From assembly GCA_014360655.1 (NCBI GenBank), contig JACIXC010000014.1, positions 1 to 64,000 on the forward strand: a DNA stretch of 64,000 nt, written 5' to 3'. Positions 53,658-57,541 of this stretch are shown in pieces. Origin of the DNA: Actinomycetota bacterium. Lineage in GTDB: Bacteria; Actinomycetota; Geothermincolia; Geothermincolales; RBG-13-55-18. Position 1 is the stretch's first letter; the number at the start of each line of letters is the position of its first letter. The translations under genes were made by a program, and so were the position numbers. The notes under the pieces are model-generated. The model saw only the letters and a list, made by a program, of their open reading frames with translations, was not told where the DNA came from and did no database searches.

Positions 53658-54362
53658 ATGTTAGGACGGGGATCGCTTACGGAGCTGCTCTTCCCCACCC
53701 GCTGCGCGGGGTGTGGGAGGTACGAGGGCAGGCAGCTCTGCGCCTCCTGTCTCTCCTCCCTCCCCCTCATCCGGGGCCCGGTGTGCCTCCGTTGCGGCAA
53801 GCCCACCCTCCACGAGGTGGAGTGGTGCCTGCTCTGCCGCGGAAGGGTAAGGCACCTCGACTCGACATGCGCGCTTGCGAAATATGAGGAACCCCTGCGC
53901 TCCATCATCCACAAGCTCAAGTACGGCAACGGATGGAGGCTGGCCAGGCCGCTGGGTTTCATGGCGGCCGCCAGGCTGGCCCCGCTGCTTTCGGACGGAG
54001 AACCCATGGTGACCTTCGTCCCCATGCACGCGCGCAAGCGCCGCGCCAAGGGGTACGACCACGCGGAGGTGCTGGGCAGGGCGGTTGCGGCGGCTCTGGG
54101 CCTGCCCTTCGCCGCTCTCCTGGAGAGGAGCCGGGCCACCTCGCCCCAGGCGTCGCTGGATCACCGCAGGAGGAAGGGAAACGTGAGGGGCGCTTTCCGG
54201 GTCTCGCGGGGGCTGGAGGGCGGCGGTGAGGTGGTGATCGTGGACGACGTGATGACCACGGGATGCACCCTCGCCGAGTGCGCCAGGATGCTCAAGAGGG
54301 CGGGGGCCGGGAGGGTGATCGCGTGCGTGCTCGCGCGCGACCTCGTACACTCCCTTTCGTAA
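53658..54362 (+). CDS. comF: ComF family phosphoribosyltransferase-like protein
   Basis: 234 residues. An N-terminal four-cysteine zinc site (CAGCGRYEGRQLCASC, CLRCG, CLLCRG) and a type I phosphoribosyltransferase domain with VVIVDDVMTTGCTL. ComF is needed for DNA uptake in competent bacteria and acts with the ComFA helicase. Family marks include KYEEPLRSIIHKLKYG and KRRAKGYDHAEVLGRAV. The start ATG is within three bases of the predicted transcription start. The adjacent FlgM-like gene repeats the comF-flgM neighbourhood of Firmicutes. Confidence 0.9.
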   Translation: MLGRGSLTELLFPTRCAGCGRYEGRQLCASCLSSLPLIRGPVCLRCGKPTLHEVEWCLLCRGRVRHLDSTCALAKYEEPLRSIIHKLKYGNGWRLARPLGFMAAARLAPLLSDGEPMVTFVPMHARKRRAKGYDHAEVLGRAVAAALGLPFAALLERSRATSPQASLDHRRRKGNVRGAFRVSRGLEGGGEVVIVDDVMTTGCTLAECARMLKRAGAGRVIACVLARDLVHSLS

Positions 54363-54419: not shown

Positions 54420-54674
54420 ATGCGCATATCGGACGGGGAGATAGAGAAGTCGCTCCGCCTCCTCTCCCAGCCTCCCCTCGCGCGCGGAAGGGGGGCCGCC
54501 GTGGACCGGCGGCTGCAAAGCCTCGTCCTCGACCGCATGCGGCTCGTTCCCGAGGTGAGGGCGGAGCTGGTGCGCCCCCTGAGGGAAGCCGTGGAGGAGA
54601 ACCGCTACCTGGTCAGCGGCGAGAAGGTGGCCCACATGATGCTGGGCCGCCTGGTGGCTGATTCCCTGCGCTGA
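54420..54674 (+). CDS. flgM: FlgM-like anti-sigma factor
   Basis: 84 residues from ATG 54420, preceded by AAGGAGGGGAG. The C-terminal part fits FlgM: RLQSLVLDRMRLVPEVRAELVRPLREAVEENRYLVSGEKVAHMML. FlgM holds the flagellar sigma factor (SigD/FliA) inactive until the hook is complete. No flagellar gene is in the window, but the order comF-flgM is as in Bacillus. The small size leaves some doubt. Confidence 0.75.
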   Translation: MRISDGEIEKSLRLLSQPPLARGRGAAVDRRLQSLVLDRMRLVPEVRAELVRPLREAVEENRYLVSGEKVAHMMLGRLVADSLR

Positions 54675-54762
54675 TGCCATCTTGGCACCCGCTGTCTGTC
54701 GTCGGGGATACGCATTATAATGTATACATGGAAGGCTTCGACCCGGGTCTGTGGTTGAAAGT

Positions 54763-55038
54763 CGATGCCAGCCGCAGGCGAAACGACCCACGTAAGCCAA
54801 CTATTGGTTGGTGAGCATGGTGCGGCTTAGGGGTAAGACCTGCCCGGTGGCGGAACCGGAGAAGCGTAGTAGTGGCGGACGCGGAGAGGTCCTACGCGGT
54901 ATCCCGTTCGCTGCGAGCCGCTCAGCAGGCGAGTGTGGGGGCAAAGACCAGGTCAGCCGGGCCTCGAGGCCTTCCTCTTTAGGCGGGGGATGAGCGGTGG
55001 GGGTGCAAGGCGGCCGCGCGCCGCGCCGGTTGGCATCG
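54763..55038 (+). ncRNA. Structured RNA upstream of hpf, raiA-motif candidate
   Basis: An 11-bp helix closes the whole region: CGATGCCAGCC (54763-54773) with GGTTGGCATCG (55028-55038), one G-U pair. Nested inside are GCAGG/CCTGC (54774-54778 with 54839-54843), TAAGCC/GGCTTA (54793-54798 with 54824-54829), a CCAAC/GTTGG hairpin, and GCGTAG/CTACGC (54864-54869 with 54892-54897). TATAAT at 54716-54721 would start it. The gene after it encodes HPF/RaiA. The raiA-motif RNA, known from Firmicutes and Actinobacteria, has just this position and size; the family match is inferred, not aligned. Confidence 0.65.
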
Positions 55039-55130
55039 GAAAGGACATATGTTAGTCTTATGCGCATTGGCGGAGAGGCCGCGCGGGGCTCGCCCGGCGT
55101 CCCTCCGTCGCGTGACAGGAAGTAAAGCCA

Positions 55131-55165
55131 GCCCATACCGTCCGCATGAGGGGTATGGGCGTTTT
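55131..55165 (+). terminator. Hairpin with T-run between the RNA and hpf
   Basis: GCCCATACC (55131-55139) pairs with GGTATGGGC (55152-55160) and is followed by GTTTTC. It could end the structured RNA or attenuate hpf, whose start lies 30 bases on. Confidence 0.55.
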
Positions 55166-55190: not shown

Positions 55191-55736
55191 ATGCAGGTGA
55201 TCGTCAAGGGAAAGAACCTCGAGGTGACGGAAGCGTTGCGCGAGTACGCCCTGGAGAAGGTGGGACGGGTCGGCAAGTACCTCGACCGCATCATCAAGAC
55301 CGAGATAGAGATGAGCGTGGAAAAGAACCCCAAGATACAGGAGAGCCAGGTGGTGGAGGTGACCATCTTCTCCAGCGGGCCGGTCATCCGCGCCAAGGAG
55401 TCGGCGAGCGACATGTACCAGGCCATAGACCTGGTGTGCAACAAGCTGGAGCGCCAGGCGCGCAAGGTGAAGAAGAAGCTCATCGACCGCTCCCACCACG
55501 CCCGCAACCCCTTCAAGGAACCCTCCGGAGCCCCGGAGGAGGGTGAGGAGAGGGAGCCCGTCATCGTCAAGACGAAGAGCTTCCCGTTGAAGCCGATGAC
55601 GCCCGAGGAGGCCTGCCTGCAGATGGAGCTGGTGGGACACGACTTCTTCGTTTTCATAAACAGCGACACGGAGGAGACCAACGTCGTTTATAGAAGAAAA
55701 GATGGGAACTACGGTTTGATCGAGCCCGGAGGGTGA
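55191..55736 (+). CDS. hpf: Ribosome hibernation promoting factor, long form
   Basis: 181 residues from ATG 55191, preceded by GGGAG. The N-terminal beta-alpha-beta domain (MQVIVKGKNLEVTEALREYALEKVGRV) binds the small ribosomal subunit and blocks mRNA and tRNA sites; the C-terminal domain (IVKTKSFPLKPMTPEEACLQMELVGHDFFVFIN) makes 100S ribosome dimers. Both present means long form. Position before secA and prfB matches Bacillus. The upstream RNA may control it. Confidence 0.95.
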   Translation: MQVIVKGKNLEVTEALREYALEKVGRVGKYLDRIIKTEIEMSVEKNPKIQESQVVEVTIFSSGPVIRAKESASDMYQAIDLVCNKLERQARKVKKKLIDRSHHARNPFKEPSGAPEEGEEREPVIVKTKSFPLKPMTPEEACLQMELVGHDFFVFINSDTEETNVVYRRKDGNYGLIEPGG

Positions 55737-55813: not shown

Positions 55814-55873
55814 GGGGAGGGCTCCGCGGCGGCGCAGGGTGCCGCGGGCATGCACGGGGCGAGGACTCACGAC

Positions 55874-57541
55874 ATGGAAAACAGTGGCACGAGGAGCGGT
55901 GAAGGCCGCACGAGGAGCGGGGAAGGCGGCGAGCGCGGGCTGCTGGCGGCGGCCATTGCGGGCTGCGCGGCATCCCTGGCCGTCATCCTCTATCTGACCC
56001 TGGCCAAGGACCAGCCGGTATTGTGGTTCTCCGTGGTCATTTTGGGGATACTGGCCGTCCTCTGCGAGAGCATGGGCGAGGAGATGTCCACGGCGGGACG
56101 TTCCACCTACGGCATCATAGCCCTCTTCGCGGCCATGGCCGCCCTCAACACGCCCTCGGCGATGATAGTGGCGCTTTGCGGTGCCGGCAACCTGCGCCTG
56201 TGGCGGGAGAGGGAAAGCGCCGGTAAGATGCTCTTCAACGCCGCCGTCTATTCCCTGGGGATATGGATGGCCTCCGCCCTCTACCACGCGCTGAATGGCA
56301 GCTCGCAGCTCTTCACGTTCTCCCAGGGCCTGCGTTCCGTGCTCCCGGCCCTCGCGGCGGCGGCCCTTTTCTGGGCGTTCAACACGTCCGCGATCGCGGC
56401 GGCGCTCGCGCTGCTGCGCGGCGTGAGCCCGCTGGGTTTCCTGCGCGTCGACGCCCTGCGGCTCTTTCCCAACCAGTTGATATACGGGCTGGTGGGACTG
56501 GGTGTGGGCATCATCTACGCCCAGAACGCCTTCCACCTGGTGCAGGGCGCGACGGGCGAGCCCGTTCTCGACGCTCTGGGCAGGCCCCTCGTGGAGGGTT
56601 CCGTCTCCGCGTACCTGCGCGGCCTCTTCGCCGTGCTCTCGCTGGTCGTCCTGCTGGGGATCTCGTGGTACTTCAGCGGCAGGAACATCGAGTTGCTGGA
56701 GTCGTACGACCGCAGCGTCGAGACCCTGGTCACCTACCTGGAGAGGCGCGAGCCTTACCTGGACGGTCACGCCTCGCGGGTGGCGCAGTACGCGACCCTC
56801 ATCGCCGAAAGGATGCGCCTCTCCCTCTTCGAGGTGAGGAGGTTGCGCCATGCCGCCCTCCTCCACGACCTGGGAAGGCCGGCCATACCCCTGGGGATCC
56901 TCCTGCAGGCCTCCCCGCTGAGCGAGGAGGAGTTCGACAGGATAAAGGCGCACCCCCTGGAAGGCAGCTCACGGCTGGAGGAGGTCGCCTACCTGGCGGA
57001 CATGGCCGAGGCGGTGAGGCACCACCACGAATATTACGACGGGGGAGGGTACGTCGACCATCTCGCGCGGGAGACCATCCCCCTGAGCGCCAGGATAATC
57101 GCCGTTGCTGACGCCTACGACGCCATGACCCACGAGCGGCCCCACCGCGGAGCGAAGGGGCACGAGAGGGCCGTAGCGGAATTACGCCAGAACAGCGGGC
57201 TGCAGTTCGACCCGGAGGTGGTGGAGCATTTCATCGCCGCCCTGGAGGGGCGCGGGGGGGAGCGGGGACCCGTTGCCGTGGAGGCGGAGGGCGCCGAGCC
57301 GGGCGTGGCGCCGGAGGCGTCGGAGGCGCCGCGGGAGAAGCAGCGCCGCGCGGTTGGGCGCAGGGCGAGGAAACGCGAGGAGATGCTGCGCGCGCGCAGG
57401 GAGGCGCGCGAGCGGCTGGAGAGGGAGGCCATGCGCGAGCTGGAGGAGACGGAAGAAGGAGGGGAGTCACGCGAGGGCATCGAGGGTAGCGGACCCCCGG
57501 CATCCGGAGCCGAGGCGGGAGAGGAGGTAGAGGGGACGTGA
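55874..57541 (+). CDS. Membrane protein with HD-GYP-like phosphohydrolase domain
   Basis: 555 residues from ATG 55874 (GAGGA before it; ATG 55850 is possible). Residues 20-270 hold several membrane helices. The HD domain begins near 295: DGHASRVAQYATLIAERM, then His331-Asp332 in LLHDLGRPAIP, HHHEYYDGGGYVD from residue 383 and ADAYDAMTHERPHRG. This is the HD-GYP arrangement, but the GYP tripeptide reads GYV. Cyclic-di-GMP hydrolysis is possible but uncertain. The last 130 residues are charged and probably coiled. The stop overlaps the next GTG by four bases. Confidence 0.8.
   Translation: MENSGTRSGEGRTRSGEGGERGLLAAAIAGCAASLAVILYLTLAKDQPVLWFSVVILGILAVLCESMGEEMSTAGRSTYGIIALFAAMAALNTPSAMIVALCGAGNLRLWRERESAGKMLFNAAVYSLGIWMASALYHALNGSSQLFTFSQGLRSVLPALAAAALFWAFNTSAIAAALALLRGVSPLGFLRVDALRLFPNQLIYGLVGLGVGIIYAQNAFHLVQGATGEPVLDALGRPLVEGSVSAYLRGLFAVLSLVVLLGISWYFSGRNIELLESYDRSVETLVTYLERREPYLDGHASRVAQYATLIAERMRLSLFEVRRLRHAALLHDLGRPAIPLGILLQASPLSEEEFDRIKAHPLEGSSRLEEVAYLADMAEAVRHHHEYYDGGGYVDHLARETIPLSARIIAVADAYDAMTHERPHRGAKGHERAVAELRQNSGLQFDPEVVEHFIAALEGRGGERGPVAVEAEGAEPGVAPEASEAPREKQRRAVGRRARKREEMLRARREARERLEREAMRELEETEEGGESREGIEGSGPPASGAEAGEEVEGT

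Follow-up and report, generated by a model that had tools for sequence, protein, structure and literature searches.

The structured RNA that lies upstream of the ribosome-hibernation gene hpf in this actinobacterial genome is a clear, well-conserved new copy of the raiA-motif (ModT) RNA, an already described family, and the evidence as a whole is best explained by a free transcript, about 250 nt in length, which very probably acts in trans rather than as a riboswitch for hpf. The window, i.e., the whole stretch of 64,000 nucleotides that was analysed (contig JACIXC010000014.1), contains a full-length covariance-model match to RF03072 of 168.3 bits, well above the gathering score of 101.3 bits, and this match, together with the covariation described below, upholds the family name that a first-pass annotation had proposed from the letters. 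RF03072 was the sole RNA family found by cmscan over the whole window, and the weak Rfam matches to gntR-DTE and SNORD23 (E about 0.9-1) were rejected as chance.

The host genome, 2.97 Mb in size and 99.96% complete, belongs to the class Ca. Geothermincolia of the phylum Actinomycetota, and its closest named relatives are the Ca. Solincola MAGs. It carries one copy of the raiA RNA, which is present in 29 of the 31 genomes of the class and in 40 of the 59 genomes of a wider sample, with no copy in 14 control genomes. The two class genomes that are devoid of the RNA also lack hpf, and their assemblies are therefore probably missing the entire locus.

The order of the genes, comFC - (FlgM) - RNA - hpf (Table 1), is the usual context of the raiA RNA, whose commonest neighbours are comFC upstream (74%) and the hpf/raiA gene downstream (66%) (PMC11706538). 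comFC is found upstream of the RNA in most of the relatives, and the match of the comFC-like gene of the window to the ComF family falls below the cut-off. The FlgM-like gene, which is located directly 5' of the RNA promoter, is kept in many members of the class. The single hpf gene, which gives the one match in the genome, is followed directly on its 3' side by a membrane-type HD (HD_5) domain protein (55850-57541), the relatives of which follow hpf in all 14 members of the host's family and in L002, L004, and L034; a link between this protein and cyclic-dinucleotide metabolism is possible. At loci of sister families (L003, L005, L009, L012, L016, L022-L025, and L028), a csp-like gene, called a cold-shock protein by eye from the letters, is located between the RNA and hpf, often with the hairpin GCAACCCCATT..GGTGGGGTTGT after it. 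Compared with the window, the L020 locus is about 260 nt longer between the raiA RNA and the hpf promoter, the additional DNA being rich in repeats (AAAGCAGGCATA units). In the L018 locus, about 209 nt separate the leader hairpin from hpf, through a miniature-transposon-like insertion that carries long inverted repeats (CCCAGGCATAGGGGTCGGCCCTGG...).

Table 1. Features of the raiA RNA locus, in positions of the window.
Feature	Positions	Strand	Evidence and remarks
comFC-like gene (double zinc ribbon + phosphoribosyltransferase)	53658..54362	+	Pfam DZR_2 + Pribosyltran; usual upstream neighbour of raiA RNA
FlgM-like anti-sigma-28 gene, between comFC and RNA	54420..54674	+	Pfam FlgM, 31.1 bits (cut-off 25)
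-10 box TATAAT of the RNA's own promoter	54716..54721	+	14/14 family members; -35 unrecognisable
Predicted free raiA/ModT RNA	54730..54980	+	Putative start at conserved GGAAGGC, 9 nt after -10; putative end in U-rich stretch after P1
Rfam RF03072 raiA match	54738..54965	+	Model positions 1-209 of 209; E 1.7e-42
P1a/b/c, 5' strand	54742..54755	+	Pairs with 54947-54961; 98.8-100% of cells paired; 7 pairs changed on both sides
P3a (54761-54764 x 54784-54787) and P3b (54767-54769 x 54777-54779)	54761..54787	+	99-100% paired; changes on both sides
pk1, P3 loop half	54770..54776	+	7 bp with 54821-54827; 99.3% of cells paired; 4 pairs changed on both sides
P4, 5' strand	54788..54791	+	Pairs with 54935-54938; invariant
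P5 hairpin	54797..54811	+	About 92-97% paired; changes on both sides in every pair
P6/P7/P8 domain, larger of two known variants	54839..54929	+	P6 100%, P7 93%, P8 base 94%, P8 75% paired; changes on both sides
U-rich stretch TCTTT directly after P1, likely 3' end	54976..54980	+	Weak in the window itself
hpf promoter-like element TTGGCA - 17 nt - TAGTCT	55030..55058	+	By pattern in 13/14 family members and L004; conserved block of the leader alignment
Terminator-like hairpin GCCCATACC/GGTATGGGC then GTTTT, hpf leader	55131..55165	+	12/14 family members
hpf (long HPF/RaiA protein)	55191..55736	+	Pfam S30AE + S30AE_C, TIGR00741

The fold was scored on an alignment of 40 loci (the window and 39 relatives), using a structure that was drawn for the window sequence, in which the helix names are those of the cryo-EM study (PMC11751092) and their assignment was made here. 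Across these loci, 93.3% of the cells are paired, and the covariation score reaches 0.324, whereas shuffles give 0.134 +/- 0.006 and sliding the partners gives no more than 0.094. Changes on both sides were found in 41 of the 61 pairs, i.e., the related genomes do contain compensatory changes, and the family name stands. Covariation supports P1, P3, and P5-P8, and the pseudoknot pk1, between the P3 loop and the pk-loop, is likewise present. P4 is invariant, and thus provides no covariation evidence either way, and P8 is the least certain helix, with a low level of pairing that is due, in part, to poor alignment. The P2 helix is absent in the class, where GAAA is found instead, whereas the aligned relatives that are more distant do have it; pk2 has only 2 canonical pairs (PMC11751092). 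A highly structured, conserved RNA is thus found where the first-pass annotation had placed one, but the interval it gave, 54763-55038, is shifted with regard to both the Rfam match and the predicted transcript of about 54730-54980.

The comparison between relatives also supports the claim that the RNA has its own promoter, given that TATAAT is found just upstream in every member of the host's family. Among the 40 loci, TATAAT is found near the RNA start in 15 (0.2% of control windows), and the looser TANNNT in 32 (11% of control windows). The -35 region is poor and unconserved, and a consensus promoter scan reported no promoter, because there was no -35 match, which is why the comparison between relatives was used instead. 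Given the conserved TATAAT, transcription would start at about 54730. The P1 helix extends outward past the Rfam match, with GGAAGGC (54730-54736) facing GCCTTCC (54969-54975), and the outer flanks of P1, to which the pairing test adds five nt from each end of the Rfam match, have a mean of -19.1 kcal/mol in their own pairs, but only -9.0 when swapped between families. Changes that preserve this pairing are seen in L015 (GGGAGGC/GCCTCCC) and L011 (GGGAGAC/GTCTCCC). The RF03072 model itself ends within P1 as extended here. On the 3' side, a run of at least 4 T occurs right after P1 in 17 of the 40 loci, compared with 4.9% of control windows, which indicates that the RNA probably ends just after P1, although the weak U-stretch of the window makes read-through possible.

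The hpf gene appears to be served by a different promoter. The promoter-like element follows the RNA, at a distance of 131 nt from the start codon of hpf, and would make hpf independent of the RNA's transcript; genus g3 has TTGCGG and TACCTT in its two members. Together with the conserved -10 box and the T-rich stretch after P1, this separate and conserved hpf promoter favours the view, already taken in the first-pass annotation, of a separate transcript. The terminator-like stem which that annotation had seen after the RNA does exist, as a hairpin at 55131-55160, but it is part of the hpf leader, 166 nt past the Rfam match. This hairpin ends about 30 nt before the ATG in 11 family members, and farther away in L018, by way of the insertion, whereas both g3 members lack it; at this position, L034 and L004 (families f2 and f3) carry a hairpin with another sequence. 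The hairpin of the window folds only slightly more stably than shuffles, and its stem hardly varies within the family, so covariation provides no test of it. There are no further copies of the hairpin in the genome, no conserved antiterminator was seen by eye in the alignment of the leader, and, in a literature search limited to titles and abstracts, no listed title concerned an hpf attenuator. A terminator-like hairpin between the promoter of hpf and its start codon nevertheless suggests that hpf may be controlled by attenuation. An unlikely further reading joins hpf and the RNA, in this lineage, into a dormancy module with two components, in which hpf, with its own promoter and gated by the conserved terminator, would perhaps respond to the raiA RNA or to a shared signal.

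The control of hpf might also be exerted in cis, by a leader or riboswitch whose changes of fold would act within one continuous transcript, given that the RNA and hpf share a strand, with the former 225 nt upstream, that a terminator-like hairpin precedes hpf, and that Rfam types the family as cis-regulatory. This label ('Cis-reg; riboswitch') is at odds with the published complementation in trans. The sequence evidence speaks against an expression platform that would act on hpf from within a shared transcript. The conserved promoter-like element of hpf after the RNA, the csp-like gene that intervenes in the class families f4, f5, and f7, and the complementation of ModT in trans (PMC11706538) together argue against a cis leader, as do five relatives from the phylum with no hpf-like gene inside the fetched flank, which makes this reading very unlikely, and the free RNA is preferred.

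Other readings concern the fold itself. The first-pass annotation had closed the structure with an 11-bp helix, 54763-54773 with 55028-55038, which was rejected as a closing stem, given that the 5' arm shares bases with P3a, P3b, and pk1 (99-100% paired, with two-sided changes), while its 3' arm, in the -35 region of the hpf promoter, carries TTGGCA. The letters of 54763-54774 and 55027-55038 are complementary over 12 bp, with one G-U, and the MFE folding of 54763-55038 also forms this helix. It might instead serve as an alternative fold with a function of its own, such as a switch in a read-through transcript that would undo P3 and pk1. In a survey of the relatives based on the 5' arm 54764-54774, the helix has 11 bp in L001 and L020, 10 bp in L034 (from another family), and 9 bp in four members (L006, L008, L018, and L019), and helices of at least 11 bp and 9-10 bp, respectively, are rarer than in shuffles for these loci. 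In the other 8 of the 14 family members, however, it has 8 bp or fewer, L020 departs by about 260 nt in the spacing of the arms, and the 3' arm already has a reason to be conserved as a -35 box. The 5' arm, which is the P3/pk1 sequence, is invariant within the family, so no compensatory change is visible for the helix, and an alternative fold of this kind is highly improbable. The minimum free energy of three intervals was not below that of shuffles (z about 0 to -0.6), as would be expected of a chance structure in GC-rich DNA, but a covariance match far over the cut-off and the strong covariation in 40 sequences have already refuted this explanation, the probability of which is negligible. 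Plain folding is uninformative in this GC-rich DNA, where the covariance model and the covariation carry the evidence, and the energies were set aside.

The free RNA, then, would be produced by the housekeeping sigma factor as a transcript of about 250 nt from 54730, with the long P1 clamping both of its ends and transcription stopping just past this helix. The stable, structured molecule would then act in trans, by binding a protein or a small ligand, and would set the transition from the exponential to the stationary phase, as ModT does in C. difficile. The linkage of the RNA to hpf would, in this case, reflect a shared physiological theme, the entry into dormancy, rather than a riboswitch for hpf.

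In C. difficile, ModT has its own SigA promoter, is highly abundant, complements in trans, and affects, in trans, the stationary-phase transition, sporulation, and c-di-GMP (PMC11706538). No match to Spo0A_C or SpoIVA was found in the present genome, which has nine GGDEF matches. The sporulation phenotype of ModT can therefore not carry over, and the RNA is unlikely to take part here in the formation of endospores, while a role linked to c-di-GMP, or a more general one, is possible. The presence of the RNA throughout an uncultured actinobacterial class, in a genome with matches to GGDEF and to neither Spo0A nor SpoIVA, supports a role broader than sporulation. This lineage also provides clean comparative evidence for a free RNA on the question of whether the element is a leader or a free RNA.

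The element resembles RF03072/ModT (PMC11706538) in its full-length model match, the possession of P1, P3-P8, and pk1, its predicted own promoter, and a probable 3' end after P1, and it lacks P2, as does ModT of C. difficile (PMC11706538). In contrast with the latter, its P1 extends outward to the predicted start, and it adjoins hpf, whereas the C. difficile RNA adjoins a PTS antiterminator gene. The hosts also differ, the present one being an actinobacterium related to Ca. Solincola and non-sporulating by two marker genes. A comparison of helix plans also reveals a likeness to the raiA RNA of C. acetobutylicum (cryo-EM 9CXF, PMC11751092), with which the present RNA shares the 7-bp pk1, P4, P5, and the larger variant of P6-P8.
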